Of a stretch of 43,364 nucleotides of DNA, positions 2,753 to 22,794 are shown one piece after another. Origin of the DNA: Anaerolineae bacterium (lineage in GTDB: Bacteria > Chloroflexota > Anaerolineae > J102); contig JALWZT010000278.1 of NCBI GenBank assembly GCA_027002405.1, positions 1 through 43,364 of the forward strand. The letters are read 5' to 3'. Each line of letters starts with the position of its first letter. Within the stretch, counting starts at the first letter, position 1. The notes under the pieces are model-generated. The model saw only the letters and a program-made list of their open reading frames with translations. It made no database searches and was not told the origin of the DNA. A program made the position numbers and the translations under genes.

Positions 2753-2791
2753 GGAGACCTCCTGGCAGGGGTAGGAAGCATGGTTCCTTTC

Positions 2792-3060: not shown

Positions 3061-3063
3061 AAT
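3034..3063 (+). promoter_or_regulatory. Predicted leaderless promoter of the SWIM gene
   Basis: TTGCGG (3034-3039), 18 nt, TAGAAT (3058-3063), then only 6 nt to the ATG at 3070. Initiation at the usual distance from a -10 box would fall on or next to the start codon, and no Shine-Dalgarno sequence precedes it. The block is conserved at the second copy (24590-24618) with the same 6 nt between -10 and ATG. Confidence 0.55.
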
Positions 3064-3069
3064 GAGTTC

Positions 3070-5456: not shown

Positions 5457-6845
5457 ATGGATGCCTTGTTCCTCGCACGGTTGCAATTCGCGATTGTCAC
5501 CGTGTACCACTGGTTTTTCGTGCCGCTCACATTGGGGATGACCATCCTGCTGGCGCTGATGGAGACCCAGTATGTGCGCTCGGGGGATGAAACCTACAAG
5601 CGCATGGTGAAGTTCTTCGGAACGCTATTCCTCATCAACTTCGCCATCGGCGTCGCCACCGGCATCGTGCAGGAGTTCCAGTTCGGGATGAACTGGTCCC
5701 AGTACTCCCGCTTCGTGGGCGACATCTTCGGCGTGCCCCTGGCCATCGAGGCGCTGCTGGCCTTTTTTATGGAATCTACCTTCCTGGGCGTCTGGATATT
5801 TGGCTGGGATAAGCTCTCCAAGAAGGCTCATCTGGCCGCCATCTGGCTGGTGGCCCTGGGCAGCAACCTCTCGGCCCTGTGGATTCTCATCGCCAATTCG
5901 TGGATGCAGGAGCCGGTGGGATTCAAAATGGAAAATGGCCGAGCAGTCATGGTCGATTTCCTGGCCGTGGCCACCAACCCCAGCATTCGCTATCAATTCC
6001 CGCATGTCTTCTTCTCCGGAATGAGCACGGCGGGATTTTTTGTGGTGGCGGTGGCCGCGTGGCATCTGCTGCGAAAGCAAACTCATGTTGAACTCTTCTC
6101 TAAAGCGTTGCGTTGGGGGCTGGTTTATGCGCTCATCGGCACGATCTTCGTGATCACCGCGGGGCATTTCCAGGGCCAGCATATGGTGGAAACCCAACCC
6201 ATGAAGATGGCCGCTGCCGAAGCCTTGTGGGATACCGAACAACCGGCCGCGTTCTCCCTTTTCACCATCGGCGACATGGTGAAACGGGAGGACATCTTCG
6301 CCATCAAGATACCGGGCCTGCTGAGCTTCCTGTCCTGCAACAATTTCTCCTGCGAGGTGCAGGGCATGAACCAGTTGCAGGCGATGTATGAGCAACAATA
6401 TGGCCCGGGCAACTACATCCCCAATGCCATGCTGGCCTATTGGAATTTCCGGCTGATGGTGGGTGCGGGCATGCTGATGCTCCTCCTGGCGCTGTACGGC
6501 GTCTGGCTGATGTATAAGAAAAGGGATTTCCGCCAGCACGCCAACTTCCTGCTGGTCGCCGTGTGGGCGCTGATCCTGCCCTATCTGGCCAACGCCACCG
6601 GCTGGCTGTTCACCGAACTGGCCCGTCAACCCTGGGTCGTCTTCGGCCTGATGAAGACGGAGCAAGGGGTCTCCAACACCGTGCCCGCGAGTTGGGTGCT
6701 GCTCTCGCTGATCACCTACACCCTGCTCTACGCCGCCCTCATCGTGGCCAATGTCTATCTGCTGCGGAAATACGCCCGCCGAGACCCCGAAGAGGAATCG
6801 GAACAACCTGAAACCCCCGCCCCCACCCTGGTTGGGGCCGCCTGA
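5457..6845 (+). CDS. cydA: Cytochrome bd ubiquinol oxidase subunit I
   Basis: Haem-bearing subunit of the membrane quinol oxidase that reduces O2 to water with high affinity. 462 residues, about nine membrane segments. Visible marks are the N-terminal RLQFAIVTVYHWFFVPLTLG with the haem-ligand His near residue 18, the paired Glu region (PLAIEALLAFFMESTFLG), the QFPHVFFSG His, the quinol-loop GHFQGQHMVETQPMKMAAAE, and ARQPWVVFGLMKT (usually GRQPW). The quinol loop is of the short type, which explains the length of 462 rather than about 520. It is first in the cyd operon, with cydB 18 bp downstream. Confidence 0.97.
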   Translation: MDALFLARLQFAIVTVYHWFFVPLTLGMTILLALMETQYVRSGDETYKRMVKFFGTLFLINFAIGVATGIVQEFQFGMNWSQYSRFVGDIFGVPLAIEALLAFFMESTFLGVWIFGWDKLSKKAHLAAIWLVALGSNLSALWILIANSWMQEPVGFKMENGRAVMVDFLAVATNPSIRYQFPHVFFSGMSTAGFFVVAVAAWHLLRKQTHVELFSKALRWGLVYALIGTIFVITAGHFQGQHMVETQPMKMAAAEALWDTEQPAAFSLFTIGDMVKREDIFAIKIPGLLSFLSCNNFSCEVQGMNQLQAMYEQQYGPGNYIPNAMLAYWNFRLMVGAGMLMLLLALYGVWLMYKKRDFRQHANFLLVAVWALILPYLANATGWLFTELARQPWVVFGLMKTEQGVSNTVPASWVLLSLITYTLLYAALIVANVYLLRKYARRDPEEESEQPETPAPTLVGAA

Positions 6846-6863
6846 GAATAAGGAGACACGATC

Positions 6864-7871
6864 ATGGACCTGAACACCATCTGGTTCGTTCTCATTGCCG
6901 TGCTGTTCGCCGGTTTCTTCATGCTGGAAGGCTTCGACTACGGCGTCGGCATGTTGCTACCCTTCCTGGGAAAGACCGACGACGAGCGTCGTTTGATCAT
7001 CAACGCCATCGGCCCGGTGTGGGATGGCAATGAAGTATGGATGTTGACCGCGGGCGGAGCCATGTTCGCCGCATTCGCCCAGTGGTACGCCACCATGTTC
7101 AGCGGCTTCTACATCGCCCTCCTGCTGATGCTCCTGGCCCTGATCCTGCGGGGCGTTTCTTTCGAGTATCGCAGCAAACACGAAGACCCCAGGTGGCGTA
7201 ACGCCTGGGATTGGTCCATCTTCATCGGCAGTTCTGTGCCCGCGCTGCTGTGGGGCGTGGCCGTGGCCAATATCATCCGCGGCGTGCCCATCGACGCAGA
7301 GATGAATTTCGTGGGCAGTTTCTTCGGCCTGCTCAACCCCTTCGCCCTGCTGGGCGGCGTCATGTTCGTGGCGGTGTTCCTCTTCCATGGCGCCATTTAT
7401 CTGGCCCTGAAGACAGGAGACCCGGTGATGAGCCGAGCCCAGGCCACGGCCAAAAGGATGTGGCTCATCGCCCTGGTGCTGGTGGTGCTCTTCGTGGTGT
7501 ACGCGTTCGCGGCCACGGGCCTCTACGCCAGCGGCGCGGCCTACCTGCCCACCCTCATCGCCGCGGTCGCCCTCATCCTTGCGGGCGTTTTCCTGAACAA
7601 AGGCCGCACCGGCCGGGCCTTCGCCATGATCGCGGTGACCATCATCTTCGTCACCTTCACCGCGTTCGCGGGCCTTTATCCCAACGTGCTGCCTTCCACC
7701 CTGGACCCGGCCTACAACCTCACCATCTACAACGCCTCGGCCAGCCAGTACACCCTGAAGATCATGACCATCGTCGCCCTGATCTTCACGCCCCTGGTGC
7801 TTCTCTATCAGGGCTGGACCTACTATACCTTCCGCCAGCGCCTGACCCTGGAGCACGAGCTGGAGTATTGA
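6864..7871 (+). CDS. cydB: Cytochrome bd ubiquinol oxidase subunit II
   Basis: Non-haem structural partner of CydA, 335 residues and highly hydrophobic with about eight to nine membrane segments. The N-terminus LEGFDYGVGMLLPFLGKTDDERR and the GPVWDGNEVWMLTAGGAMFAAFAQWYA block (written across residues 20-80) are the family signature. AAGGAGACACG precedes the ATG, and the gene follows cydA by 18 bp. A strong intrinsic terminator lies 27 bp after the stop, so cydAB can form its own transcript separate from cydD. Confidence 0.97.
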   Translation: MDLNTIWFVLIAVLFAGFFMLEGFDYGVGMLLPFLGKTDDERRLIINAIGPVWDGNEVWMLTAGGAMFAAFAQWYATMFSGFYIALLLMLLALILRGVSFEYRSKHEDPRWRNAWDWSIFIGSSVPALLWGVAVANIIRGVPIDAEMNFVGSFFGLLNPFALLGGVMFVAVFLFHGAIYLALKTGDPVMSRAQATAKRMWLIALVLVVLFVVYAFAATGLYASGAAYLPTLIAAVALILAGVFLNKGRTGRAFAMIAVTIIFVTFTAFAGLYPNVLPSTLDPAYNLTIYNASASQYTLKIMTIVALIFTPLVLLYQGWTYYTFRQRLTLEHELEY

Positions 7872-7898
7872 AGACCACTACATCGCGCCATGCGAATC

Positions 7899-7932
7899 GA
7901 CGCCCTCGGCTTCCTGGCTGGGGGCGTCTTTT
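7899..7932 (+). terminator. Intrinsic terminator after cydB
   Basis: GACGCCC (7899-7905) pairs with GGGCGTC (7922-7928), followed directly by TTTT. It separates cydAB from cydD, so cydD may depend on read-through or on another promoter. Confidence 0.7.
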
Positions 7933-7989
7933 GTCCGGTCGAATCCCATCTCGCACGACTCACCTCAACGCCTTACCCCTTTGCAATTT

Positions 7990-8228
7990 GGGTGCGTCCT
8001 ATTTCGGTTGAGGCTGTACTCACCGACTGAAGTCGGACACTTAAGGCCTACGGCCAGCCCCCCTCTTCATCTCCCCCGCAAGCGGGGGAGAACATCGGAA
8101 GGGAATCAGATGACGGCCTTCGCCGTCCAGTCGTCCGGTCGACGGAGGTCGACCGTCGGCGCGAAGCGCCTAAAGAGTCCGAGTTCACTCGGATAGGAGG
8201 CTGGCGCCAACTCATTTAGGACGCACCC
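7990..8228. mobile_element. 239-bp MITE with seven internal hairpins
   Basis: Perfect 12-bp terminal inverted repeats, GGGTGCGTCCTA (7990-8001) and TAGGACGCACCC (8217-8228), flanked by a perfect 9-bp target duplication TTGCAATTT (7981-7989 and 8229-8237). No ORF of its own. The interior is a row of perfect short hairpins: 8023-8036, 8045-8055, 8071-8090 (CTCCCCCGCAAGCGGGGGAG), 8112-8127, 8136-8155, 8158-8170 and 8178-8193. A non-autonomous DDE-transposon derivative is the simplest reading. The 9-bp duplication fits several IS families, so the parent is not assigned. It sits between cydB and cydD. Confidence 0.88.
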
Positions 8229-8264
8229 TTGCAATTTCACCCGTGCGCAGGAGATGAGCCCGTC

Positions 8265-10034
8265 ATGAAGTTTGACCGTAACCTGCTTTCTGCGGCCATG
8301 CAGGCCCGACTATGGCTGATACTCACCATCGGCCTGGGCTTCCTCGCGGGCGCCGTCATCGTGGCGCAGGCCTGGTTTCTGGCCCGCATCGTGGATGGCG
8401 TGTTCCTGCAAGGCCGCGCGCTGGCCGATGTGACGCCGTTATTGGCTGGGTTGGCCGCCCTGGCCCTGGCCCGATTCCTCTTCGCCTGGGGCAGCGAAAG
8501 CGCGGGGAAGCGGCTGGCTGTGCGGGTGAAGATCGACATCCGGGAACGGCTGGCCCGGCATCTGCTGGCCTTGGGCCCGGCCTACGCCGCGGAGGAGCGC
8601 AGCGGCGAGCTGGCTAACACCCTCACCGCGGGCGTCGAGGCCCTGGACGCGTGGTTCAGCCAGTACCTGCCCCAGGCAGCCCTGGCCCTGATCGTGCCCC
8701 TCACCATCCTGGTCGCGGTCTTTCCCCAGGACCTCCTCTCCGGCTTCGTGCTATTGGTCACCGCGCCCCTCATCCCCCTCTTCATGATCCTCATCGGCAG
8801 TGCGGCCGAAAGCCTCACTCGCAAGCAATGGACCACCCTCAGCCGTCTTGCCGCCCACTTCCTGGATGTGATCCAGGGGCTGACCACCCTCAAGCTCTTT
8901 GGCCGGGCCCGAGACCAACTCCGCATTATCGCCCGCATCAGCGATGACTACCGGACCGCCACCATGGGCGTGCTGCGGGTGGCGTTCCTCTCCGCGCTGG
9001 CGCTGGAGATGCTGGCCACCATCAGCGTCGCGGTCATCGCCGTGGAGATCGGCATCCGGGTGATGAAGGGGGGCATGGACTTCCTCAATGCGTTCTTCAT
9101 CCTCATCCTCGCGCCCGACTTCTACCAACCCCTGCGCCTGCTGGGAAGCCGATTCCACGCGGGCATGGAGGGCGTGGCCGCGGCTGAACGCATCTTCGCC
9201 ATCCTGGATCAACAGCCCACGGTAGAACGGAGGTCGGAGGGCGGAGGTCAGAGGACGGAGGGCAGGGGACAGGGGGCTGAGTTGTGCTTCCTGCCTCCTG
9301 ATTTCAGCATCCGCTTTCAAAACGTCAGTGTGAGCTACCAGGAGGGACAGCGCCGGGCGTTGGAGGAGGTCAGCTTCGAGCTGCGTCAGGGCCAGCACAT
9401 CGCGCTGGTGGGGCCCAGCGGCGCTGGCAAGAGCACCATCGCCCATCTCCTTATGCGCTTTCTAGAACCCACCGCTGGCCGCATCCTCCTGGATGACACG
9501 CCTCTCGACCGCATCGACGCCCGGGCCTGGCGGCAGTGCATCGCCTGGATGCCCCAGCGGCCCTACCTCTTCAACATGAGCATTGCGGACAACATCCGTC
9601 TGGGACAGCCCGACGCGGGGATGGACGCGGTGGTGCGGCCGGCAAAGCAGGCTTTCGCCCACGACTTCATCCGGGCCTTCCCCGACGGCTACGACACCAT
9701 GGTGGGCGAGCGGGGTGCGCGGCTCAGCGGCGGCCAGGCCCAGCGCATCGCCCTGGCCCGGGCCTTCCTCCGGGACGCGCCCATCGTCATCCTGGATGAA
9801 CCCACCGCCAACCTGGACCCCGAAACCGAAGAGCAAATCCAACAGGCCATGCAAACGCTGCTGGCCGGGCGCACCGCGCTGATCATCGCCCATCGCCTGC
9901 ACACCATCCGCCGGGCCGACCGCATTCTGGTTATGCAGGCGGGGCGCATCGCCGAAGCGGGAACCCACGAAGACCTGCTGGCCCGTCCAAACAGCATGTA
10001 CCATCAACTTCTTGTCGCCTACCGCGCGGTTTGA
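8265..10034 (+). CDS. cydD: ABC exporter subunit CydD (thiol exporter for cytochrome bd assembly)
   Basis: Half of the heterodimeric CydDC ABC exporter, which in E. coli moves glutathione/cysteine to the periplasm and is needed to assemble cytochrome bd. 589 residues from the ATG at 8265, which has AGGAG about 10 nt upstream; a longer in-frame TTG start would lie inside the MITE target duplication and is rejected. Six membrane segments (about 10-320), then an ATPase domain with GPSGAGKST, LSGGQAQRIALARAF and VILDEPTANLD. The linker before the ATPase domain carries a Gly/Arg-rich insert coded by a purine-rich short repeat (9230-9280) not expected in this family. Confidence 0.93.
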   Translation: MKFDRNLLSAAMQARLWLILTIGLGFLAGAVIVAQAWFLARIVDGVFLQGRALADVTPLLAGLAALALARFLFAWGSESAGKRLAVRVKIDIRERLARHLLALGPAYAAEERSGELANTLTAGVEALDAWFSQYLPQAALALIVPLTILVAVFPQDLLSGFVLLVTAPLIPLFMILIGSAAESLTRKQWTTLSRLAAHFLDVIQGLTTLKLFGRARDQLRIIARISDDYRTATMGVLRVAFLSALALEMLATISVAVIAVEIGIRVMKGGMDFLNAFFILILAPDFYQPLRLLGSRFHAGMEGVAAAERIFAILDQQPTVERRSEGGGQRTEGRGQGAELCFLPPDFSIRFQNVSVSYQEGQRRALEEVSFELRQGQHIALVGPSGAGKSTIAHLLMRFLEPTAGRILLDDTPLDRIDARAWRQCIAWMPQRPYLFNMSIADNIRLGQPDAGMDAVVRPAKQAFAHDFIRAFPDGYDTMVGERGARLSGGQAQRIALARAFLRDAPIVILDEPTANLDPETEEQIQQAMQTLLAGRTALIIAHRLHTIRRADRILVMQAGRIAEAGTHEDLLARPNSMYHQLLVAYRAV

Positions 10035-10043
10035 CGCCTCTTG

Positions 10044-10064
10044 TGATACAATCTTACCAGTAAG
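10044..10064 (+). promoter_or_regulatory. Extended -10 promoter and operator of the AbrB/PIN module
   Basis: TGATACAAT (10044-10052) is an extended -10 element. It is followed at once by the perfect dyad CTTAC-ca-GTAAG (10053-10064), placed at the transcription start, which suits autorepression by an AbrB-type antitoxin dimer. It gives the module a promoter of its own inside the cyd locus. Confidence 0.45.
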
Positions 10065-10087
10065 ACAACCCTTCCGGAGGCATGCTC

Positions 10088-10363
10088 ATGTCCAAGATCG
10101 CCACAACCAAAATGTCATCCAAAGGTCAGGTCGTCATCCCCGAAGCCATCCGCAAGCAGCTCAATTTGGAGCCGGGAGAGCAATTCGTCGTTATGGCGGA
10201 AAGCGATGTCGTCATCCTCAAACGGATCACCCCGCCTACAATCGACGAATTCGAGCCCCTGCTTGCTCGCGCCCGGTTGGCCGCCGCGGAAGCCGGCCTG
10301 ACTCAAAAGGACGTTGAGGAGGCTATCCGGGAGGTGCGAAAGCGCGATGAAGGTCGTTCTTGA
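10088..10363 (+). CDS. AbrB/MazE-type antitoxin
   Basis: 91-residue DNA-binding antitoxin. The SpoVT-AbrB swapped-hairpin signature is KMSSKGQVVIPEAIRKQLNL followed by EPGEQFVVM. The C-terminal half, acidic and helical, is expected to wrap the toxin. The ATG at 10088 is preferred to that at 10082 because CGGAGG ends about 8 nt upstream of it. It overlaps the PIN gene by 17 bp, the usual coupled arrangement. It lies 53 bp after cydD. Confidence 0.88.
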   Translation: MSKIATTKMSSKGQVVIPEAIRKQLNLEPGEQFVVMAESDVVILKRITPPTIDEFEPLLARARLAAAEAGLTQKDVEEAIREVRKRDEGRS

Positions 10364-10754
10364 CACCAATGTGCTCATCTCGGGGATTTTCTTCGGCGGG
10401 CCTCCCCTGGAGATATTGGGGGCATGGAAAGATGGACGCATCGAGCTTCTGATTTCCAACGAAGTTCTGGATGAATATCAGCGCGTCGCCTGGAAGCTTG
10501 CAGAGAAACTGTCAGATGTTGATGTGGAACGCATTTTGCAGATCATCCGCGATCACAGCATCCTGGTGAGCACTTCTGGTGTTTCAGTTGCCGTTTGCAG
10601 CGATCCCGATGATGACAAGTTCATCGAGTGCGCCATTGCAGGTAACGCCGACGTCATCGTGAGCGGCGACAGGCATTTACTGGAAATCGGTATGTACGAA
10701 TCCACGCCCATCATCACGCCAAGAGCCTTTCTCGATCAATTCCTCGGCCAGTGA
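10347..10754 (+). CDS. PIN-domain toxin (COG1569-like)
   Basis: 135-residue putative endoribonuclease. The PIN start MKVVLDTNVLISGIF supplies the first metal-binding Asp. Further expected acidic residues are in LISNEVLDEY, CSDPDDDKFIECA and VIVSGDRHLLEI. These proteins cleave RNA with Mg2+ and are held inactive by the partner antitoxin. The start at 10347 is set by the PIN motif; a longer frame lacks a better site. cydC begins 13 bp after its stop, so toxin and cydC are probably on one mRNA. Confidence 0.88.
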   Translation: MKVVLDTNVLISGIFFGGPPLEILGAWKDGRIELLISNEVLDEYQRVAWKLAEKLSDVDVERILQIIRDHSILVSTSGVSVAVCSDPDDDKFIECAIAGNADVIVSGDRHLLEIGMYESTPIITPRAFLDQFLGQ

Positions 10755-10767
10755 CGGTCACCCAGCC

Positions 10768-12528
10768 ATGCACGTTTTTTTCCGCCTCCTCCGCCTCGTC
10801 TCCGGCTTCTGGCTGCGCATCCTTCTGGCCGCGTTCCTGGGCTTCGCCACCGTCGCCAGCAGCATCGGCCTGATGATGACCTCCGCGTTCATCATCGCCA
10901 AAGCCGCGTTGCATCCCTCCATTGCAGATCTGCAAGTCGCGATCGTGGGCGTGCGTTTCTTTGGTATCAGCCGGGGCCTGTTCCGCTACCTGGAACGCTA
11001 CGTCTCCCACGACCTCAACTTCCGGCTGCTGGCCCGCATTCGCGTCTGGCTCTATCAGCGCATCGAGCCCCTGGCCCCGGCCCGGCTGCAAGCCTACCGT
11101 AGCGGCGATCTCCTCACCCGTCTGGTCGCGGACGTGGACGAGCTGGAGAACTTCTTCATCCGGGTGCTGGCTCCGCCTCTGGTCGCCATCGGCATCATCG
11201 CCCTCACCTGGGCGTTGCTCAGCCTGTTCAGCCCCGCGGCCGCGCTGGCCGTCGTGGTTCTGCTCATCCTCGCGGGCGCGGCCTTCCCCCTGCTGGTGCA
11301 GACTCTGGCCCGACGCCCCGGGCAGCAGCACATCGCGCTCCGATCCCGGCTCAACGCCCACCTGGTGGACGGCGTCCAGGGCATGGCCGACCTGCTGGCC
11401 TACGGCGCGGAAGCGCGCTACCTGGCCCAGGTGGATGCCCTGAACCAGGAAACCGGGCGGGTGCAGAACCGGCTGGGCGCGATCGCCGCGCTCAACGACG
11501 CGGGCGTCCAGTTCATCATGAATATCGCCGTGGTCATCGCCCTGGCATTCGCCGTCCCTGCGGTGACGTCGGGCGCGCTCAGCGGCGTGCATCTGGCGGT
11601 CATCGCCCTGGGCGTCATGGCCGCGTTCGAGGCGGTGCAACCTCTGCCCCTGGCCTTGCAGCACCTATCCGCCACGCTGGCCGCGGCCCGACGCATCTTT
11701 CAGGTGGTGGATGCGCCCCCAGCGGTGACGGAGCCCCCACATCCTCTCCCCTGCTCGAAGCAAAGGGAGCAAGTAGCAAAGCGAACGGGCGACGCGCCGG
11801 TGCTGACGGTGCGGGAACTCAGCTTCCGCTACGGCCCCAACGAACCGCTGGCCCTCCAGAATATCACCTTCACCCTGCCGCCGGGCGGACGCATGGCCAT
11901 CGTCGGGCCCAGCGGCGCGGGCAAGAGCACCCTGGTCCATCTGCTCATGCGCTTCTGGGATTTCGACCAGGGCCGCATCGAGCTCGATGGCCGGGACATC
12001 CGCGACTGCGCGGGGGATGATGTGCGGGCCCGGTTCAGCGTCGTCTCCCAGACCACCCATCTCTTCAACGCCACGCTGCGAGAAAACCTCCTCCTGGCCC
12101 GCCCCGACGCCTCCGAATCCGACCTGTGGGAGGCGCTGGCCCAGGCCCAGTTGGCCGACTTCGTGCGCGATCTGCCCCAGGGGTTGGATACCTGGGCGGG
12201 AGAGATGGGGGTGCAGCTCAGCGGCGGCGAGCGCCAGCGGCTGGCCATCGCCCGCGCCCTCCTCAAAGACGCGCCCATCCTCCTGCTGGATGAGCCCACT
12301 GCCAACCTGGACGCGGCCACCGAGCGGGCCTTGTGGCGCGATTTATCACGCCTCATGGCCGGCCGCAGCGTGCTGCTCATCACCCATCGCCTGGTGGGGA
12401 TGGAGCAGATGGACGCCATCCTCGTGCTGCGGGCCGGGCGCATTGTGGCGCGGGGAACCCACGCCGAGCTGCTGGCCTCGGGCGGGCTCTACGCCCGACT
12501 CTGGGCCTTGCAGCACGCTACCCTCTGA
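10768..12528 (+). CDS. cydC: ABC exporter subunit CydC
   Basis: Second half of the CydDC exporter, 586 residues. The N-terminal membrane domain (about 1-310) has FRLLRLVSGFWLRILLAA and the ISRGLFRYLERYVSHD motif seen in CydC. The ATPase domain has GPSGAGKSTLVHLL, LSGGERQRLAIARALL and LLLDEPTANLD. The gene is separated from cydD by the toxin-antitoxin pair, yet both halves are intact, so the exporter should be complete. The domain linker (11730-11790) also holds an irregular Pro/Arg/Lys-rich insert. It converges with the SARP gene on the other strand. Confidence 0.94.
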   Translation: MHVFFRLLRLVSGFWLRILLAAFLGFATVASSIGLMMTSAFIIAKAALHPSIADLQVAIVGVRFFGISRGLFRYLERYVSHDLNFRLLARIRVWLYQRIEPLAPARLQAYRSGDLLTRLVADVDELENFFIRVLAPPLVAIGIIALTWALLSLFSPAAALAVVVLLILAGAAFPLLVQTLARRPGQQHIALRSRLNAHLVDGVQGMADLLAYGAEARYLAQVDALNQETGRVQNRLGAIAALNDAGVQFIMNIAVVIALAFAVPAVTSGALSGVHLAVIALGVMAAFEAVQPLPLALQHLSATLAAARRIFQVVDAPPAVTEPPHPLPCSKQREQVAKRTGDAPVLTVRELSFRYGPNEPLALQNITFTLPPGGRMAIVGPSGAGKSTLVHLLMRFWDFDQGRIELDGRDIRDCAGDDVRARFSVVSQTTHLFNATLRENLLLARPDASESDLWEALAQAQLADFVRDLPQGLDTWAGEMGVQLSGGERQRLAIARALLKDAPILLLDEPTANLDAATERALWRDLSRLMAGRSVLLITHRLVGMEQMDAILVLRAGRIVARGTHAELLASGGLYARLWALQHATL

Positions 12529-12636
12529 ACGTAATCCTGACATATCCTCCATCTTGGTTCATCAAGCATAAAACGGGGTGATCTGATCTCACCTCCTTTG
12601 AAGCTGATGAGGGCGCTGGCGGTCACCAGCACAGGG

Positions 12637-15600
12637 TTAGAATGCCTCGACAGACTGCGAGACCACCACATCCTGCCAAAACGTCTGGCCCATGGCCGAC
12701 ATGGGATAGCGGCGCACTCGCGGTTTTAGCAACAGGTGATCCCGCTTGTAGATGAGAGGCAGGATGGGCGCTTCCTGCACCAGGATCTCCTCGGCCTGGC
12801 GGTAGCACGCCATGCGTTGTCCAGCACCGGTTAGGACGCGCGCCTGCCGCACCAGATCATCATAGCCCGCATGGCGCCAGGCAGGCCAGGCCCGGGCCCG
12901 GCTCACCCGCAAAAAGCTATCGGGATCGGGATAGTCCGCCACCCAGCCCAGGTTGATGATGTGGTAACGCCCGCGTCCCAACCGTGCCAGATACGCGGGC
13001 CAGTCCACGATCTCCGGCCGCAACGTCACCCCCAGGATCTGGCGCCACTGGGCTTGCAAAAAGCGGTTTCGCGGGGCCACGGCCTCGTAGACCAGGACAT
13101 GGAGGGGGGGCAGGCCACGGCCTTGGGGATAGCCCGCCTGGGCCAGCAGGCGCCGCGCGGCTTCCGGCTGGAAGGGGAGGGCGATGCTGGAAGCGTGTCC
13201 GGGCATCCCCGGCGGCGTCAGGCCCCCTGTGGCCGGTGTCCCATAGCCCTGCAACACCTCATCCGCCAACGCGCTGCGGTTGGTGGCCAGGACAAAGGCG
13301 CGACGCACCCGCGCATCATCGAAAGGCGGGCGGGTGACATCAAAGGCCAGGAAATGCGTTTCCAGGCTGGGACGGGTGATGTATTCGCTCCCATGCCGTT
13401 GCCGCACCTCTTCCCGCATCCCCGCGGGCATGTAGGTGACGCCCAGGATCTCCAGTTCATCCTCCTCGTACAGACGCCGTCGCGTGTCCCAGTCCTGCAC
13501 CAGTCGGAGGATCACGCGCTGCAAGTTGCCGGAGAAGCGGCCATGATACCGGGGATTGCGGGCCAGTTCGATGCGCTCGCCCTGCTGCCAGGTCTGCACC
13601 ACAAAAGCGCCGTTGCTCACCAGATGGGCATCCTGCGCCCATGCCGGGCCTTTTTCCTGCACGATGTGGCGAGGAACGGGGTACCAGGTGACATGGGTGA
13701 GCAATTGCGAGAAATAGCCCACCGGATGGGCCAATTCCACGCGCAGGGTGAAATCATCCAGCGCGCGCACGCCTACATCCTCCCTTTTTCCCTGGCCCTG
13801 ATGAAAGGCTCGTCCCCCGCGCAGATCGTATAGAAAGGATGCGGCCGGAGAACCGGTGGCAGGGTCCAAGACGCGCTTCCACGCGTATTCGAAATCGTGG
13901 GCGGTCACCGGCACGCCATCGCGCCAGCGCGCGTCCCTCCGCAGGTGAAAGATGAAGACGCGGCCAGCGTCGTGCACCTCCCACCTGCGGGCCAGGTCGG
14001 GGGTAATGCTCATATCGGGGCTTAGGGCCACCAGGCCGCTGAAAAGCTGGGCGATGAGGCAATCGGTGTGTGCATCGGGTGCGAACGCGGGGTCGAGCGT
14101 GAGAGGCTCCTGCCAGCGGACGCGTAGGGGGTTGGATGCAGGAGGCAGGGGTGCGCGTTGGGGGCGAGCCGTCGCGCGCTGCCAGTGGCGGAACGCCTCG
14201 TCGTAAGCCGCGCGGGCCTGGGCAAAGTCGAAGGCATTGTGATAGGTGAGGCCCAGCTTCATCAGGGCGCGGGCGGTCTTTTCCTCATCGTCCCCCTGCC
14301 GCAGATAATCCAGGGCCTGGCGATAATAGCTCACAGCCTCCTCATGGGCGTAGAGCAGCCGCGCTTCATCCCCTGCCTGCAAGAGGTAGGGGATCGCTTT
14401 TTGGGGGAGGTCGGCCTGCACCCAATGATAGGCCAGCAGGCCCGCTTGAGCTTCCCCTTGCCGTTCCAGGGCCTCCCCCACCTGCCGGTGTAATGCTCGT
14501 CGCCGCTCCGCCACCGTGGTTTCGTACACCACGGCCCGGATTTTGTCGTGGCTGAAGTCGTAGCAACCGGCCGTGGCTTGGGGTCGCACCAGATGCCGGG
14601 CCAGCCATTCCTCCACGCTGGCTGTCACTGTGGTGGGCGTTTCTTGCGCCGCGGCCTGCAGGAGCCCATCATCGAAGCTGCGTCCAATGACCGCGGCCAG
14701 GGTGAGCAGGCGTCGGGCCGGCTCGCTCAATCGGCCCACTCGTTGCAAGATCACATCCTGGACGCGATGGGGGATGGTATCCACCGAACGCCCTTCTTGC
14801 CAGCTCCCCTCGGTAGGGGCGAGTGCGCCCTCTTCTTGCAGCATATAGATGGTTTCGACCAGGAAAAAGGGATTGCCCTCGCTTTCCCGATAGAGCAGCT
14901 CCCCCAATGAGGAAGCCGCCTCGGACCCAACCAGCCAGCGGGCGATGTCGGATACAGCGGCAGGGGCCAGGGCCGCGAGTTCCAGTTCATCCACCAGGTG
15001 ATCCCGGCTCAATCCCTGTCGCAGGCGGGTGAGGTGGTGGCTCACCCCCACCTCTTCGGGCCGATAGGCACCAAGCAGCCACACCGGCACGGATTTCAGC
15101 CGCCGCGTGAGGTAATGGAGGAGGTCCAGGGTGGCGATATCCGCCCATTGCAGATCATCGAGGAAGAGGAGCACGGGGTGACGCGCGGCCAGGGTTTGTA
15201 AAAGGAGGGCGACCGCCTCGAATAGCCGCTGCCGCGCGGCCTCGCCGCTCACCTGGCGTGGCTGGGGCAGGTTTGGGTGGTGCTGGCGCAGTTCGGGCAA
15301 CAGGCGGGCCAGTTCGGCCAGCCAGACGGGTGAAAGAGCCCAATCGCTGGGGAATTCGACCTGGCGCCACAAACCGCGCAGGGCCTCGGCAATGGCCTGA
15401 TAGGGAACGTCGCCGCCGAATTCATAACAGCGCCCCTGCAGCACCCGCGCGCCCTGGGCCTTGACGTAGGCCATCATCTCCTCGGCCAGGCGGGTCTTGC
15501 CGATGCCCGCTTCCCCTGTGATGAGGCCCAGGCGGCCCTGGCCGCGGCGCGCCCTCTCCCACCACGAGGCCAGGGTGGCCCGCTCCTCTTGCCGGCCGCG

Positions 15601-16422
15601 CAGGGGCAGGCGCAAGGATGCAGGTGGCGGCGCATGCCAATCCGCGTCCTGCCAGGCCCGCAGACGTTCGTACAGAGCCGTGGTTTCGGGCATGGGCGCC
15701 ACACCCACCTCTTCCTCCAGTTGGCGGCGGCAGATGTCATACTGGGCCAGGGCCGCGCTGCGCTGGCCGGTCAGGGCCAGCAGCGTCATCACCAGCCGAT
15801 GCCCCTCCTCCCACCAGGGCTCGAGCTGCACCTGAGCGCGGGCGTACACCAGCGCCTGGTCGTAGTCTCCCCGTCGCATGAGATGAGTCGCCAGGCGGGA
15901 AAAGGCGACCAGGGCCTGCTCCCGCAGGGTTGCTGCGTGCCCGGCGCGCCAGGCATCGAATTCAGGCGCATCATCCAGGATCAAATCGGTGAGGAAGTCG
16001 CCCTCATAGAGGGCAACCGCCTTTTGTAGATGCGCGATGGCCCCGGTTACATCCCCCTTGCGCTGACAATGCGCCGCCTCTTCCATCTCGGCCTGAAATG
16101 TCCGCGCGTCCACCTGCACTCGGGCCCCTTCTCGCACCCCCACCGTGAGCCTGTCCTCCATCAGCAGATCGGGCGGCAGTCTGCGGCGCAGATGCCACAA
16201 GGTCTGGCGCAGATTGTGCCGCGCTTTCCTCTCGCTGCATCCGCCCCACAGCAGGCCGGCCACGCGGCCGCGAGGGTGTGGGCCGGGGTGCAAAAGCAGG
16301 TAAATGAGCAACGCCTGGGCCTTGCGCAGGGTGATGGTCTCCAGGGGCTGCTCGCCCACACGGATTTCCAGGCACCCCAACGTGCGCACCTCGAGGCATG
16401 CGGTCGCATCATCCGGTGCCAT
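12637..16422 (-). CDS. SARP/BTAD-ATPase regulator fused to a solute-binding protein domain
   Basis: 1261 residues, a large one-component regulator. About 10-95 is an OmpR-like winged helix. 97-255 is the bacterial transcriptional activator (BTAD) helical domain. 270-560 is a STAND/AAA-type ATPase with Walker A GEAGIGKTR (about 303-311) and Walker B VLLFLDDLQWAD (about 417-427). 640-750 holds TPR-like helices. From about 763 to the end is a full family-5 solute-binding fold (Dpp/Opp type): LTLDPAFAPDAHTDCLIAQL, LARRWEVHDAG, FHLRRDARWRDGVPVTAHDF, ARNPRYHG, FDDARVRRAFVLATNR and a C-terminal YRQAEEILVQEAPILPLIY. There is no signal peptide, so the binding domain is cytoplasmic and probably senses a ligand, as the SBP5-like domain of E. 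coli SgrR does. The target genes and ligand are unknown. Confidence 0.88.
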   Translation of the reverse strand: MAPDDATACLEVRTLGCLEIRVGEQPLETITLRKAQALLIYLLLHPGPHPRGRVAGLLWGGCSERKARHNLRQTLWHLRRRLPPDLLMEDRLTVGVREGARVQVDARTFQAEMEEAAHCQRKGDVTGAIAHLQKAVALYEGDFLTDLILDDAPEFDAWRAGHAATLREQALVAFSRLATHLMRRGDYDQALVYARAQVQLEPWWEEGHRLVMTLLALTGQRSAALAQYDICRRQLEEEVGVAPMPETTALYERLRAWQDADWHAPPPASLRLPLRGRQEERATLASWWERARRGQGRLGLITGEAGIGKTRLAEEMMAYVKAQGARVLQGRCYEFGGDVPYQAIAEALRGLWRQVEFPSDWALSPVWLAELARLLPELRQHHPNLPQPRQVSGEAARQRLFEAVALLLQTLAARHPVLLFLDDLQWADIATLDLLHYLTRRLKSVPVWLLGAYRPEEVGVSHHLTRLRQGLSRDHLVDELELAALAPAAVSDIARWLVGSEAASSLGELLYRESEGNPFFLVETIYMLQEEGALAPTEGSWQEGRSVDTIPHRVQDVILQRVGRLSEPARRLLTLAAVIGRSFDDGLLQAAAQETPTTVTASVEEWLARHLVRPQATAGCYDFSHDKIRAVVYETTVAERRRALHRQVGEALERQGEAQAGLLAYHWVQADLPQKAIPYLLQAGDEARLLYAHEEAVSYYRQALDYLRQGDDEEKTARALMKLGLTYHNAFDFAQARAAYDEAFRHWQRATARPQRAPLPPASNPLRVRWQEPLTLDPAFAPDAHTDCLIAQLFSGLVALSPDMSITPDLARRWEVHDAGRVFIFHLRRDARWRDGVPVTAHDFEYAWKRVLDPATGSPAASFLYDLRGGRAFHQGQGKREDVGVRALDDFTLRVELAHPVGYFSQLLTHVTWYPVPRHIVQEKGPAWAQDAHLVSNGAFVVQTWQQGERIELARNPRYHGRFSGNLQRVILRLVQDWDTRRRLYEEDELEILGVTYMPAGMREEVRQRHGSEYITRPSLETHFLAFDVTRPPFDDARVRRAFVLATNRSALADEVLQGYGTPATGGLTPPGMPGHASSIALPFQPEAARRLLAQAGYPQGRGLPPLHVLVYEAVAPRNRFLQAQWRQILGVTLRPEIVDWPAYLARLGRGRYHIINLGWVADYPDPDSFLRVSRARAWPAWRHAGYDDLVRQARVLTGAGQRMACYRQAEEILVQEAPILPLIYKRDHLLLKPRVRRYPMSAMGQTFWQDVVVSQSVEAF

Positions 16423-16927
16423 GAGTAACCAGTGTTCAGTGTTCAGTATTCAGTAGGTTGGCTGTTTCTTGGTGTCTTGTGGTGAAGGATTATCTGCGTC
16501 GATCTGTGTCGCATCGGCGCAAATCTGCGTTCTCATTTTCCTCGGTATCGACGAGCGGAGGCTCGTGGCGTCTGCTTTCTGCGGAAGACGAGATGGCGCT
16601 TCGGCGTCGATTCGAGAGATGATCCTCACAAACGCAGTTCGCCCACCCGCGAAGAATGACGGTGAGATGACGATGAGATGACGATGCATCACTAAAATGG
16701 ACGTGTCATGATAAGTATAGCATGAATTCTTCTCGCGCGAAATTGCGGCGAGGAGGGGGTCCCAGAAATTTGGCGTTATCCAGCATGAGACTTCGGAGGC
16801 CCGCGCAGGCCGTCCGAGATCTGACCTCCGTCCCCCGACCTCGGACATTGGACCTCGGACATCGGACATTGGACATCCTACATTGGACGCCAACCATTCT
16901 CCCCTTCGTTTTGTCCATCTCCTGACC
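16423..16927. repeat. Intergenic repeats upstream of the SARP gene
   Basis: CAGTGTTCAGTATT units (16430-16456); a CTGCGTCGATCTGTGTCGC/CAAATCTGCG block; and, reverse-oriented, the left end of the ~190-bp element, with CTGCT (AGCAG on the minus strand, 16572-16576), the hairpin GAGC-ctcc-GCTC (16553-16564) and CGATACCGAGGAAAATG (about 16535-16551). At 16785-16822 is a GAGACTTCGGAGG/CCTCCG-like hairpin. At 16838-16880 are CTCGGACATTGGACAT-type units. The element tail is missing next to the SARP start. Confidence 0.6.
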
Positions 16928-17310: not shown

Positions 17311-17354
17311 CTATCTTGCTTCCCGATCCCACCGCGAGTGCGCGGAGGAAAATC

Positions 17355-20300
17355 ATGTCACCCAAAACTTTGCATACCTGGCTTCAAGTCTTCCTCGTGC
17401 TCAGCCTGGTGCTGGGCGGCCTGGCATGGGCGCGGCCGGCCTACGCCTGGCCCCTGCCGCCGGCCGAGCGTCACCTGCGCGATGACCCCGACGTCGGGCG
17501 CGCTGCGCCGCCGGCGCCGCCAGGCCCGACGCCCCTTCATATCACCACCGAGGGAGGCGATGACAGCAGTGGCAGCAACAGAACGAACGGAAGCGGCCTG
17601 GACGCCGGCGATCCGGTGTCCGCCAACAACGGCGCCTATCACTTCGACATGCCCCTCCTCGCCCTGGGCGGGCCCATGAACCTGGGCTTCACCCTGCGCT
17701 ACCGCTCCGACTTCAACCAGGTGCTCTGGGCCGAAGCCCTGCCCATCCGTTTCTGGTGGAGCCCCTGGGAAGACCTGGAATGGGAGCGCTCTCCCGGTTT
17801 CACCTTTGTCACCGTCCAGATCGCCAACGGCGATGTCATCAGCTTCAAATGGGTGACCGACCACTGGGAACCGGGCGCGCCATTTATGCCCGGCGTCTAT
17901 CCCGTGCCCTGGTCGCTCCAGGAAACCGGCGACTATTTCTACCTGATGGACCCCATCGGCGAGCAGGTGCACATCTTCAAGAAGATCAACCAGGTGGGCC
18001 GCATCGAGCGCATCGTGGACCGCAACGGCAACCAGCTCATCTACGCCTACGCCACGGATGATACTCTCTTCCCCAGCCGGGTGGAGGACGGTCTGGGCCG
18101 TTCCCTGGATTTCACCTACCAGAAGTTCGGCAACTTCACCGGGCTGGTGCGGGTGACCGACCACGCCGGACGGCATGTGGATTTCACCTACGAAGAGCAT
18201 GGCGCGGACAACGAAAACGTCTGGACATTGCGCTCGATAACCGACTCCATGGGCCAGACCACGACCTTCCACTACACCTGGAAGGAGCGGGATGACCACC
18301 TGGTGAAGTGGCATCACCAGATCACCGCGGTGGAGCGGCCGGCCGGCAACACCCCCTACACCCAGGCCTACGAGATGCGCAACCTGGCTGGCTCCAACGC
18401 GTCCCGCGTCATCTCCCAGACCGACGCTTACAGCCACACCACCACCCTCACTTACGACCCCACTGCGGTCAAGGTGACGGAGACCCGTCCCGACGCCGCG
18501 ACCCAGGTCTACGAGCATTACGGCCGCCACAGCCCGCCCAAATCGCTCACCGATCCCACGGGCAAGACCATGCACTTCAGTCACGACGCGACCACCGACC
18601 GGCTCACCGGGGTCACCGACCGGCTCGGCGACGCCTCGCAAATCACCTATCATCCCCAGACGGGCAAGATCGCCAGTTGGACCGACGCCGAGGGCAAGAC
18701 CACCACCTACACCTACACGGCCCAGACGCAGACCTTCACCAACCCCCTCGCCACCACCGAGACGGTCGCCTTCACCTTCTACGATCTGACCCGCGTGGAC
18801 CATCCCGACGGCAGCCGCGAGACCTTCACCTACGACGCTCACGGCAACGTCCTCACCCGCACCGACGGGCTGGGGAACGTATGGCATTACACGTATAACG
18901 GCCGCGGCCAGTTGCTCACCGCCACCAACCCCGAAGGCGGCGTGACCACCTATACCTACAACGCGGACGGCACCCTGGCCTCCCGCACCGATTCAGACAC
19001 CGGCGTCACCACCTACGACTACGACGCCTACAAACGGCTCAGCGTCATCACCCGCCCCGGCGGCGCCACCGTGAACTTCACCTACGACCTGAACGACCGC
19101 CTGCTGACCCGCACCGACGAACTGGGCGATGTCACCACTTTCACCTACGACGCCAACGGCAACCGGGACACGGCGACCAATCCCCTGGGGCAGACCGTCA
19201 CCTACGCTCAGGATTTGATGGACCGCCTGAGCGGCGTCACCGACCCGCTGGGGCAGAGCAGCCACCGCACCTACGACGAGATGGGCCGGCTGGCTTCCTT
19301 CACCGACCGCAACGGCAACACCACGGCCTACGCCTATGCCCCCCGTGGCTGGTGCACCGGCATCACCGACCCGGCGGGCCATACCTGGACGACGGGCTAC
19401 GACGACGAAGGCGTGCCCACAGCCTTCACCACCCCCCTGGGCCGCACGACCGCTTTCCAGACCGACAACCTGGGCCGCACCACGGTCATCACCGACCCGC
19501 TGGGCGCGGCGACCGCCTTCACCTACGACGCCATGGGTCGCCTGACTTCGACCGCCGACCGCATGGGCCGCGCCACGACCTACGCCTACGACGACGCCGG
19601 CCGGCTGGTGGGTGTGACCCGCGCCGGCCTAGGTTCAGCGACCTACACGCGGAACGACCTGGGCCTGCTGAGCCGCATCACCGACCCCCAGGGCAAGCAT
19701 TGGGACTTTGGCTACTCGGCCATGGGCCGCCTGACCTCCCACACCGACCCCCTGGGCCGCCGATGGGCCTACGCCTACGACAATCGCGGCCGTCTCTCCC
19801 AGATCACCTATCCCGACAGCACGACCACGGCCTACACCTACGACGCGGCAAGCCGGGTGACGCAGATCGCCTATTTCGGCGGGCCCACGTTGGACTACAC
19901 CTACGACGACGCCGGACGCTTGCTGACGGCCGACGGCATCGCTTTCACCCGTGACGCCCGGGGGGACATCACCGACAGCCGGGACGGGAGCGCTTCGTTC
20001 GGGGCCACCTACGACAAGGGCCGACGGGTCAAAACGGTGACCTACGACGGCCAGGCCACCGTCACCTACACCTACGACGGGCGGAACCTGCTGACCCGCG
20101 TGGAGGACGACCTCAGCGGGGCCTGGATGACCTTCGCCTACGACGATGACGGCCGGCTGACCGAGATCGCCCGCTCCAACGGCGTGAGCACCACCCTCGC
20201 CTACGACGATGCCGGCCGCGTGACCCGCATCCAGGATGGTGGGGCGAACGGCGGTTCGCCCTTACAAGCCGACCAGCGATACACCCTCAACGCCGAGGGC

Positions 20301-21446
20301 GAGCCGACCCACGTGGCCCGCACCCTGCCCCTGAATCCGCCGCCCGCTCTGCCTTCGCTGAACCTGACCTACGACGATGCGAACCAGATCAGCGCTTCCG
20401 GCTACGCCTACGACGCCCGCGGCCGCCAGACCGCCGCACCGGGCAAAACCTTCGCTTATGACGGCGCCTCCCGCCTGACCTCCGTCAGCGCGGACGGCAG
20501 CACGGCCGCGTTCACCTACAACGGCCTGGGCGACCTGCGCACCCGCACCGTGGACGGCATCACGACGCACTACTACCACAACTACGCCCTGGGCCTGAAC
20601 CCCATCGTGGCGGAAAAAACGGGTGCGGCCTACGATCGCTTCTACGTCTACACCCCCGGCGGCGCGTTGCTGTATTCGATAGAGCCGGGCAGCGGCGCGG
20701 TGCGCTTCTACCACTTTGACCGTCTCGGCTCCACCCTCTTCCTCACCGACGGGGCCGGCGCGGTGAGCGACGCCTACGCCTACGACCCCTACGGCAACCT
20801 GCTGGGCCACACTGGCACGAGCGACCAGCCCTTCACCTACGTGGGGCGCTACGGCGTACGCTACGAGCCGGTGGGCGCGCTCTACGACATGCGCGCCCGC
20901 GTCTACGATCCGGCCACGGCCCGTTTCCTGACCCGCGACCCGGTCTGGCCGGCGCTGCGCGACCTGCGCAGTCTGAACCCCTACGCCTACGCGGCCCAGA
21001 GCCCGCTATACTACATTGATCCCCTGGGGATGAAACTGCAGAGGATACGGGTGCGGATTTTCTTATATTGGCGAGGGAGCCCTTGGAAGCTGTTCCGGCT
21101 TTTGTATCAACTTTTTCAGTTTGCGGCTGGCCCAGGAGATGCAACATCAGTGAGCTTGTCAGGAGGCGGCGGTGGAGTCATTCAGCCCTGGGAGGCTGGG
21201 GCGGCGGGAGCGCAGTTTACGGTTGGCCCAGAAGATGTAATATCAATGATCTTGTCAGGAGGCGGCGGTGGAGTCATTCAGCCCTGGGAGGCTGGGGCGG
21301 CGGGAGCGCAGTTTACGGTTGGCCCAGAAGATGTAATATCAATGATCTTGTCAGGAGGCGGCGGTGGAGTCATTCAGCCCTGGGAGGCTGGGGCGGCGGG
21401 AGCGCAGTTTACGGTTGGCCCAGAAGATGTAATACCACCGCCATAG
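17355..21446 (+). CDS. Secreted RHS/YD-repeat protein with tandem Gly-rich tail
   Basis: 1363 residues. The ATG at 17355 has GGAGGA 5 nt upstream and opens a signal peptide (hydrophobic about 8-25, likely cut after AYA near residue 32). After a linker comes the DUF6531-like start DPVSANNGAYHFDMPLLAL, then more than twenty YD repeats (TYDANGNRDT, YDAMGRLTS type) and the RHS core end, RFLTRDPVWPALRDLRSLNPY and DPLGMK. YD repeats form a shell that encloses a C-terminal polypeptide, often a toxin. Here the part after DPLG has a basic/aromatic stretch and then three copies of a 32-residue unit (GGGGGVIQPWEAG...), with no toxin domain that I recognise. No immunity gene is evident. Confidence 0.92.
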   Translation: MSPKTLHTWLQVFLVLSLVLGGLAWARPAYAWPLPPAERHLRDDPDVGRAAPPAPPGPTPLHITTEGGDDSSGSNRTNGSGLDAGDPVSANNGAYHFDMPLLALGGPMNLGFTLRYRSDFNQVLWAEALPIRFWWSPWEDLEWERSPGFTFVTVQIANGDVISFKWVTDHWEPGAPFMPGVYPVPWSLQETGDYFYLMDPIGEQVHIFKKINQVGRIERIVDRNGNQLIYAYATDDTLFPSRVEDGLGRSLDFTYQKFGNFTGLVRVTDHAGRHVDFTYEEHGADNENVWTLRSITDSMGQTTTFHYTWKERDDHLVKWHHQITAVERPAGNTPYTQAYEMRNLAGSNASRVISQTDAYSHTTTLTYDPTAVKVTETRPDAATQVYEHYGRHSPPKSLTDPTGKTMHFSHDATTDRLTGVTDRLGDASQITYHPQTGKIASWTDAEGKTTTYTYTAQTQTFTNPLATTETVAFTFYDLTRVDHPDGSRETFTYDAHGNVLTRTDGLGNVWHYTYNGRGQLLTATNPEGGVTTYTYNADGTLASRTDSDTGVTTYDYDAYKRLSVITRPGGATVNFTYDLNDRLLTRTDELGDVTTFTYDANGNRDTATNPLGQTVTYAQDLMDRLSGVTDPLGQSSHRTYDEMGRLASFTDRNGNTTAYAYAPRGWCTGITDPAGHTWTTGYDDEGVPTAFTTPLGRTTAFQTDNLGRTTVITDPLGAATAFTYDAMGRLTSTADRMGRATTYAYDDAGRLVGVTRAGLGSATYTRNDLGLLSRITDPQGKHWDFGYSAMGRLTSHTDPLGRRWAYAYDNRGRLSQITYPDSTTTAYTYDAASRVTQIAYFGGPTLDYTYDDAGRLLTADGIAFTRDARGDITDSRDGSASFGATYDKGRRVKTVTYDGQATVTYTYDGRNLLTRVEDDLSGAWMTFAYDDDGRLTEIARSNGVSTTLAYDDAGRVTRIQDGGANGGSPLQADQRYTLNAEGEPTHVARTLPLNPPPALPSLNLTYDDANQISASGYAYDARGRQTAAPGKTFAYDGASRLTSVSADGSTAAFTYNGLGDLRTRTVDGITTHYYHNYALGLNPIVAEKTGAAYDRFYVYTPGGALLYSIEPGSGAVRFYHFDRLGSTLFLTDGAGAVSDAYAYDPYGNLLGHTGTSDQPFTYVGRYGVRYEPVGALYDMRARVYDPATARFLTRDPVWPALRDLRSLNPYAYAAQSPLYYIDPLGMKLQRIRVRIFLYWRGSPWKLFRLLYQLFQFAAGPGDATSVSLSGGGGGVIQPWEAGAAGAQFTVGPEDVISMILSGGGGGVIQPWEAGAAGAQFTVGPEDVISMILSGGGGGVIQPWEAGAAGAQFTVGPEDVIPPP
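21117..21436. repeat. 96-bp tandem repeat in the RHS gene end
   Basis: The unit starts recur at 21161, 21257 and 21353 (AGGAGGCGGCGGTGGAGTCA), exactly 96 bp apart, with essentially no mismatch. A diverged part-unit (21117-21160) precedes them, and the last unit is cut short by the stop codon. As 96 is divisible by three, copies can be gained or lost without a frameshift. Near-identity suggests recent expansion. Confidence 0.9.
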
Positions 21447-21548
21447 CAGTGACACTTAAGCAAACGCAAGGAGGTGATGCGTATGAGACGAGTCCTTAGA
21501 AGACACGATCACGTCGGCGCTTTGCCGAGCAAAGGAGGTAAACAAACC

Positions 21549-21887
21549 ATGAGAACGATGGCGAACAAGAAATCATTGGCCCGCAGGACGCTCCGTCTGT
21601 GGCCGCTGGCCGCGCTGCTCCTGCTGCTGATCCTGAGCCTGGCCCTAAGCGGCGCGCAGGGCCTCGCCGCAGGGACGACATTGAATCCAGTGCCTGATAA
21701 TCCTCGAGCGATGGGGGGCCAGCCCCGCACCGTCACCTACGCCTACGACGCGGCGGGACGGCTGGTGAGGGCCGACTACGGCGGCGCCGCGAGCATCGCC
21801 TACACCTACGACGCGGTGGGGAACCTGGTGCAACGTCAGGTCACCGGCGCGAGCTACCCGGCCTATTTGCCCGTGATCATGCGCTAA
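21549..21887 (+). CDS. Small secreted YD-repeat protein
   Basis: 112 residues from the ATG at 21549, preceded by AAAGGAGGT with 9 nt of spacing. The signal peptide/anchor is RTLRLWPLAALLLLLILSL, with likely cleavage near GLAAG. Two YD repeats follow (VTYAYDAAGRLVRADYGG and IAYTYDAVGNLVQRQVTG), and the chain ends YPAYLPVIMR. An in-frame ATG at 21483 with its own AAGGAGGTG would add 22 Arg-rich residues; the later start gives a cleaner signal peptide. It is just downstream of the RHS gene and is probably cotranscribed. It could be a partner of, or a duplicated remnant of, the large protein. Confidence 0.75.
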   Translation: MRTMANKKSLARRTLRLWPLAALLLLLILSLALSGAQGLAAGTTLNPVPDNPRAMGGQPRTVTYAYDAAGRLVRADYGGAASIAYTYDAVGNLVQRQVTGASYPAYLPVIMR

Positions 21888-22453: not shown

Positions 22454-22722
22454 ACTCCCTGATCTCCGAGACCCAGGATCGCCTCTTCTTCCTCGCGAGA
22501 AAGTCGTTTCCCTCGCTGCTCCGCGGGGATAAGCGGCCAGACTTCCTCTTCGAGGAAAGCGCGCAAACGCTTCGCCCGCTCGCTCTGCCCGACTTGCGCC
22601 GCAAGCCGCCGGTAACGGTCATCCAGAGCCTTGCGCAGGGCTTCGGTCCTCGTTTCACCGGTGGCCTGCACGATGCCATCGAGAAGGCGCTCTACATCCT
22701 GGTTGTCAATCGTAATAGGCAT
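22450..22722 (-). CDS. vapB: VapB-type (PSK family) antitoxin
   Basis: 90 residues from the ATG at 22722, with CAGGAGG about 6 nt upstream; a TTG two codons earlier is less likely. The MPITIDNQDVERLLDGIVQA start and the TGETRTEALRKALDDRYRRL helix are those of Rv0623/PSK-type VapB proteins, a short ribbon-helix-helix-like DNA-binding head. The C-terminus is expected to cover the VapC active site. It precedes vapC with a 4-bp overlap, and TAAAAT about 25-30 nt upstream may be its -10 box. Confidence 0.9.
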   Translation of the reverse strand: MPITIDNQDVERLLDGIVQATGETRTEALRKALDDRYRRLAAQVGQSERAKRLRAFLEEEVWPLIPAEQRGKRLSREEEEAILGLGDQGV

Positions 22723-22794
22723 GTTCAACCTCCTGAACTACATCTATTTTACCATCATTCATGTCGCATCGACCAAAGGAGGGATGATCGGACA

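Follow-up and report, generated by a model that had tools for sequence, protein, structure and literature searches.

Can the binding fold of a peptide transporter serve as the sensor of an intracellular switch? This question is raised by the gene P0001, found in a 43,364-nucleotide contig of an Anaerolineae bacterium (Chloroflexota; JALWZT010000278.1, assembly GCA_027002405.1), the whole of which is called the window below. P0001 joins, in a single chain, a SARP-type DNA-binding domain with BTAD, a STAND ATPase, an arm followed by a short tetratricopeptide repeat (TPR) segment, and a solute-binding protein (SBP) domain of family 5. We consider it probable that P0001 is a STAND switch of the AfsR/MalT kind, whose usual repeat-type sensor has largely given way to a peptide-type flytrap inside the cell.

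P0001 is one unbroken open reading frame (ORF) of 1261 amino acids on the minus strand, from an ATG at 16422 to a stop at 12637; the plus strand of 12637-16422 contains stops throughout. A sequence-only reading of the window, which named no strand, had already proposed this list of domains in one gene, with the SBP starting near residue 763. Pfam and fold matches bear out the list, and a frameshift that would split the gene in two was looked for and not found. The profile search of residues 763-1261, a check set beforehand, gave an SBP_bac_5 match (PF00496, residues 806-1172) at E 4e-82 and 276.7 bits, for a gathering score of 32.4, and the superpositions reported below begin at ~763, in agreement with the proposed boundary. 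Pfam places the TPR stretch at ~693-746, and Trans_reg_C is weakly matched in three P0001 homologues (L014, L092 and L093). A genome-wide scan yielded full-length relatives at 64%, 56%, 51% and 41% identity, all in Chloroflexota metagenome-assembled genomes. Since full-length orthologues in other assemblies (64%, 56% and 51% identity) have the same layout, which recurs in many independent genomes, an assembly chimera or frameshift was ruled out. Neither a signal peptide, whose absence the sequence-only reading had noted, nor a transmembrane segment was found in P0001, because the highest mean hydropathy over any 19-mer is only 1.66 (here and below, export leader and transmembrane calls rest on hydropathy). 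An exported lipoprotein fused by mistake was ruled out for the same reason.

Structure prediction agreed with this layout. The AlphaFold2 model of residues 268-1261, whose input alignment held 40 sequences, solely from the window and the loci of the genome scan, had a mean predicted local distance difference test score (pLDDT) of 93.5 and a predicted template modelling score (pTM) of 0.83. It contains a complete two-lobe SBP fold. Residues ~763-1257 superpose on DppE, MppA and OppA with Z scores of 38-40 and a root mean square deviation (rmsd) of 2.0-2.3 A over 478-497 residues (Foldseek, VIA-align), at 26-29% identity to OppA, MppA and DppE. The modelled domain resembles closed, liganded forms more than open MppA (Z 32.6, rmsd 5.6). 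The list of fold matches also includes AccA, NikA and sialic-acid binders. The model of residues 1-766 was less certain (pLDDT 84, pTM 0.47). With Foldseek, this part matched the AfsR SARP (transcription complexes 8k60 and 8hvr; TMt 0.76, E 7e-11), EmbR, Apaf-1, PH0952 and MalT. AfsR (1e-5) and EmbR were also among the phmmer matches of P0001.

P0001 is not an isolated case. After removal of duplicates, 65 distinct STAND-SBP fusion ORFs were collected, all from Chloroflexota, and one more kinase-type fusion (L208) came in addition. According to BLAST, the N-terminal output is BTAD in 30 of the 65, a class III cyclase in 22, a Ser/Thr kinase in 3, and BTAD together with a kinase in 1; the other 9 are unassigned or truncated, and include a protein with HTH_3/HTH_31 by Pfam (L128). 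Pfam upheld the output types for the members scanned. The Walker A pattern was present in 54 of the 59 fusions having a detectable AAA domain. Matches at E <= 1e-92, some of them pieces at contig edges, were found in 46 of 396 Anaerolineae genomes sampled. A phylum-wide sample of Chloroflexota gave matches in 11 of 400 genomes, which added several other classes; of these 11, two belong to Anaerolineae, and at least one of the matches is a STAND protein that lacks an SBP. No fusion was found outside Chloroflexota in 1,106 genomes (299 Bacillota, 292 Cyanobacteriota, 269 Pseudomonadota and 246 Nitrospirota, with Actinomycetota not in the sample), at cut-offs of E <= 1e-100, or 1e-110 for Nitrospirota, below which a distant fusion could score. 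One candidate, L203 (G013, 1490 aa), was ruled out, being a DUF11 and SBP protein without STAND.

The fusion SBPs have lost the marks of a transport role. Among 36 fusion loci flanked by 3 kb or more, none has an OppB-like permease homologue, compared to 60 of 89 ordinary SBP loci (p 8e-14), and no fusion has a hydrophobic leader within the 80 residues before the SBP, compared to 92% of ordinary SBPs. Thus neither the export signal nor the nearby permease genes of an ABC-transporter substrate-binding protein accompany them. The genome of P0001 encodes six other SBP_bac_5 proteins. Two of their loci were read, and each encodes a transport protein with a leader, followed downstream by a permease gene. 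At locus L008 of this genome (328-3030), an apparent amino-acid-type SBP precedes SBP_bac_5 in one lipoprotein-like chain of 900 residues, upstream of an Opp-type permease.

The history of the parts was read from trees. In the SBP tree, all 62 fusion SBPs fall on one side of a branch with a Shimodaira-Hasegawa-like approximate likelihood ratio (SH-aLRT) support of 99, apart from 47 ordinary transport SBPs. Output types are interleaved on this tree, with 13 parsimony changes; its well-supported branches alone require at least 6 changes for BTAD and at least 5 for cyclase. The AAA and arm/TPR trees sort more by output, and BTAD-STAND proteins lacking an SBP are nested among the fusions. A single clade of fusions is rejected by the approximately unbiased (AU) test for both parts (p 1e-68 for AAA, p 1e-4 for arm/TPR). 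The simplest reading of these sequences would be that a single SBP lineage, dedicated to an intracellular role, was joined to several STAND chassis, since the AAA and arm parts of the fusions do not form one clade; the trees are quick searches without bootstrap and do not fix the number of joining events. A fixed STAND-TPR-SBP cassette with swapped N-termini was ruled out, as the SBP tree unites the fusions and the AAA and arm trees do not. With the same lineage joined to cyclase- or Ser/Thr kinase-output STAND chassis, the SBP lineage would therefore act as a transferable intracellular sensor module.

Compared to known systems, P0001 is closest in layout to the large SARP AfsR of Streptomyces coelicolor. 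Both begin with a SARP winged helix and BTAD, followed by the nucleotide-binding oligomerisation domain (NOD) of STAND proteins, an arm and TPR, as expected of a large SARP, and the N-terminal third of P0001 superposes on the AfsR SARP. AfsR ends in its TPR sensor, whereas P0001 continues, after a short TPR segment, with a full OppA-type flytrap. P0001 shares with MalT, PH0952 and Apaf-1 the arm, the TPR and the AAA_16/NOD core with Walker A, which defines STAND proteins structurally. The known sensors of STAND proteins are made of repeats (TPR, WD40, LRR), most with a long array, whereas that of P0001 is a binding-protein fold of cluster C.

The SBP_bac_5 domain of SgrR-type factors can act as a cytoplasmic sensor (PMC13060122), and the comparison with SgrR made in the sequence-only reading proves apt: SgrR and DsvR are, like P0001, cytoplasmic transcription factors with a C-terminal SBP_bac_5 sensor (PMC13060122). 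SgrR-type proteins are however described as helix-turn-helix (HTH) and SBP only, without STAND ATPase, BTAD or TPR. P0001 falls outside the SgrR family, having STAND and TPR between HTH and SBP_bac_5, and a DNA-binding part of the SARP type. Its SBP has the fold of OppA, MppA and DppE, with the amine-binding Asp and the adjacent Trp, and differs from them by the missing export leader and permease neighbours, the lost carboxylate anchors and the fused cytoplasmic switch. The STAND/TPR part of the TOMM kinase/cyclase fusion family TIGR03903 matches residues 269-720 of P0001, and in this family a chassis of this kind also carries kinase and cyclase outputs. P0001 stands outside it, with 167.5 bits for a cut-off of 705.75 and neither a kinase nor a cyclase domain. 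An SBP is not known to be part of the definition of TIGR03903. In the open-licence PMC literature, we found no description of a BTAD/STAND/SBP or a cyclase/STAND/SBP protein, nor of a cluster C fold as STAND sensor. Each part of P0001 is known; the joining of flytrap and STAND, and the fact that it serves at least three output types, appear undescribed in that literature. The sequence-only reading, which called the fusion unusual, is incomplete, as the fusion belongs to a Chloroflexota-wide family whose SBP lineage also feeds cyclases and kinases.

Published work on related switches indicates how P0001 could operate. In AfsR, NOD and TPR inhibit the SARP, and ATP binding lifts this inhibition with the oligomeric state unchanged; the inducer of AfsR is still unknown (PMC10936776). 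In MalT and PH0952, the arm and the TPR sensor keep the NOD closed until the inducer binds, and STAND TPR sensors combine autoinhibitory contacts to the nucleotide-binding domain with inducer binding (PMC6468293). For P0001, we infer the ligand class, the autoinhibition and its release, and the DNA target as follows. It would be a one-component transcription regulator, in which the STAND ATPase and the arm hold the SARP winged-helix/BTAD effector inactive. The SBP flytrap would close on its ligand, for which a short peptide or some other free-amine compound is the likeliest candidate, perhaps taken up by Opp or produced by cell-wall or protein turnover. Closure would loosen the contacts of the sensor and arm with the nucleotide-binding domain, ADP would be swapped for ATP in the STAND domain, and the SARP dimer, once freed, would bind to direct repeats and bring in RNA polymerase; large SARPs of the AfsR type bind such repeats at the -35 region and contact sigma region 4 as well as RNA polymerase. 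The sequence-only reading had suggested ligand-controlled ATPase oligomerisation driving transcription. This is plausible, but relief of inhibition appears better supported, because ATP relieves AfsR inhibition without oligomeric change (PMC10936776).

What the flytrap binds is suggested by its pocket. OppA Asp419 holds the N-terminal amine of the peptide. By alignment to 1b05, Asp1163 of P0001 is the equivalent of this residue and Trp1160 that of OppA Trp416, and neither varies among the 7 closest fusions. Among the 62 fusion SBPs, 43 have D at the Asp419 position and 53 have W at the Trp416 position. Since the Asp419 equivalent is kept, sequence makes a peptide or amine-bearing molecule the more likely ligand of P0001, rather than a sugar. 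Several observations weigh against the reading as a whole. In 19 of the 62 fusion SBPs another residue stands at the Asp419 position. P0001 has lost the residues with which OppA binds the carboxylate (R404 to L1148, R413 to N1157, H371 to V1115, K307 to L1057), as have, for the most part, ordinary Chloroflexota SBPs. Conservation of the pocket in the closest clade is 0.68, for 0.71 over the whole SBP domain. Finally, the chain was modelled as 1-766 and 268-1261 separately, so that no single model places SARP relative to SBP. Because Asp419 varies and the carboxylate-binding residues are not kept, a ligand with a free amine would be favoured, and a plain short oligopeptide only moderately so.

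These same observations feed two other explanations. The SBP could be a dead scaffold, which has kept its fold and binds no small ligand, serving as a docking surface for a partner or for autoinhibition only; the loss of several OppA ligand contacts, the varying Asp419 and a pocket whose conservation in the closest clade does not exceed that of the remaining domain all go in this direction. We hold this unlikely, since the fold is intact, its confident model is predicted nearest to closed ligand-bound structures, and Asp1163 and Trp1160 do not vary in the closest clade. Moreover, when the fusions of each output class are compared to P0001, median conservation is in every class highest in the SBP part of the chain, and a complete two-lobe fold retained across outputs better fits ligand-driven closure. 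Alternatively, the flytrap could sense a sugar, a sugar-phosphate, an opine, a metal chelate or another non-peptide metabolite, as in SgrR, AccA and NikA. The ligands of family-5 SBPs are diverse, the fold matches include AccA, NikA and sialic-acid binders, and the OppA carboxylate anchors are missing. As OppA, MppA and DppE are clearly the top matches in both sequence and fold, and the amine-binding Asp is kept, we give this possibility roughly one chance in four.

It is also possible, though we doubt it, that P0001 acts mainly locally, on the adjacent gene for a secreted surface protein (the divergent Rhs-repeat gene), and is thus a cell-envelope or surface switch. Many fusions do adjoin genes for secreted repeat proteins: besides the Rhs gene, these are beta-helix proteins at L011 and L177, beta-propellers at L179 and L158, and a cohesin/glucodextranase-like protein at L180. 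In a cyclase-type subclade (L164, L167, L169, L170, L172, L173 and L174), the gene directly downstream belongs to one BLAST cluster of right-handed beta-helix or weakly similar secreted proteins. These seven neighbours are convergent and lie at most ~41 bases from the 3' end of the fusion (L173 with an overlap of 7 bases). Found across several families, a beta-helix or secreted gene beside cyclase-type fusions is a conserved linkage. For divergent upstream neighbours, however, the enrichment is only a trend in a crude test (7/16 compared to 22/107, p = 0.057), and one of the seven, that of L173, is actually a downstream neighbour. Nor was a shared operator found. The CAGTGTT heptamers upstream of P0001 were considered as a SARP operator and rejected as specific evidence, the CAGTRTT double repeat having 269 occurrences in the genome, compared to 0 for a reversed control. 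Because of these counts, we take the heptamers to be a dispersed repeat family.

The features of P0001, a probable flytrap-gated STAND switch, are collected in Table 1.

Table 1. Coordinates of P0001 and its domains and motifs in the window.
Feature	Coordinates	Strand	Evidence
P0001, complete ORF, SARP/BTAD - STAND - arm/TPR - SBP_bac_5 fusion regulator	12637..16422	-	ORF reading and Pfam
OmpR-type winged helix of the SARP domain, residues 1-103	16114..16422	-	Foldseek AfsR 8k60/8hvr; phmmer AfsR 1e-5
BTAD domain, residues 104-255	15658..16113	-	Pfam PF03704, 7.3e-28
STAND/AAA_16 nucleotide-binding domain, residues 274-449	15076..15603	-	PF13191, 2.4e-33; Foldseek Apaf-1, PH0952, MalT
Walker A GEAGIGKT, residues 303-310	15493..15516	-	Motif pattern, intact
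Walker B-like LLFLDD, residues 418-423	15154..15171	-	Motif reading
Winged-helix/arm and short TPR segment, residues ~460-752	14167..15045	-	Pfam TPR_12/TPR_1; models all-helical
Family-5 solute-binding fold (OppA-type, cluster C), residues 763-1257	12652..14136	-	PF00496; fold match with Z 38-40
Asp1163 codon, equivalent of OppA Asp419	12934..12936	-	Alignment to 1b05

Around P0001, the window holds at 5457-12528 the genes of cytochrome bd subunits I and II (cydAB) and then two ABC exporter genes (cydDC-like), convergent with P0001. The large secreted Rhs-repeat gene occupies 17316-21446 and carries at its 3' end, at 21117-21434, a 96-bp tandem array of 3.3 copies with a 96% match. It is followed by a short Rhs-like ORF (21474-21887) and a transglutaminase-like ORF (22594-23505); this region may be a polymorphic surface locus. 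Tandem repeats of 7 bp (CAGTGTT, AGTAATC and similar) are found at 16430-16454, 16835-16888, 184-208, 4833-4874, 32127-32172, 35006-35057 and other places. A match to the Acido-Lenti-1 RNA (RF01687) lies at 360-405, with 40.1 bits for a gathering score of 37. Among the other fusion loci, L017 (1-4014) has two tandem SBP_bac_5 domains behind its STAND/TPR part and may sense two ligands. L185 (5089-9672) combines BTAD, Ser/Thr kinase, STAND, TPR and SBP in a single chain and faces a convergent gene (9690-13607) for a NACHT-TPR-cyclic-nucleotide-binding-cyclase protein. At L159, an nSTAND1-WD40 protein gene (211-4569) adjoins a truncated fusion gene in the same direction.

STAND switches such as AfsR, MalT, Apaf-1 and the NLRs are usually gated by repeat-type sensors with elusive ligands. 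In P0001 the sensor is globular, a soluble flytrap of ~500 residues from a binding family that is well understood, and therefore its ligand and mechanism are directly testable. One sensor lineage across transcription, cyclase and kinase outputs provides natural domain-swap experiments. For the family as a whole, we see an even chance that a Chloroflexota flytrap lineage, descended from a peptide-transport binding protein, gates STAND switches with SARP/HTH, cyclase and Ser/Thr kinase outputs, forming intracellular receptors of a new class, for peptides or metabolites, like the RRNPP peptide sensors in logic and structurally unrelated to them. It would show a route from an exported transport protein to an intracellular receptor.

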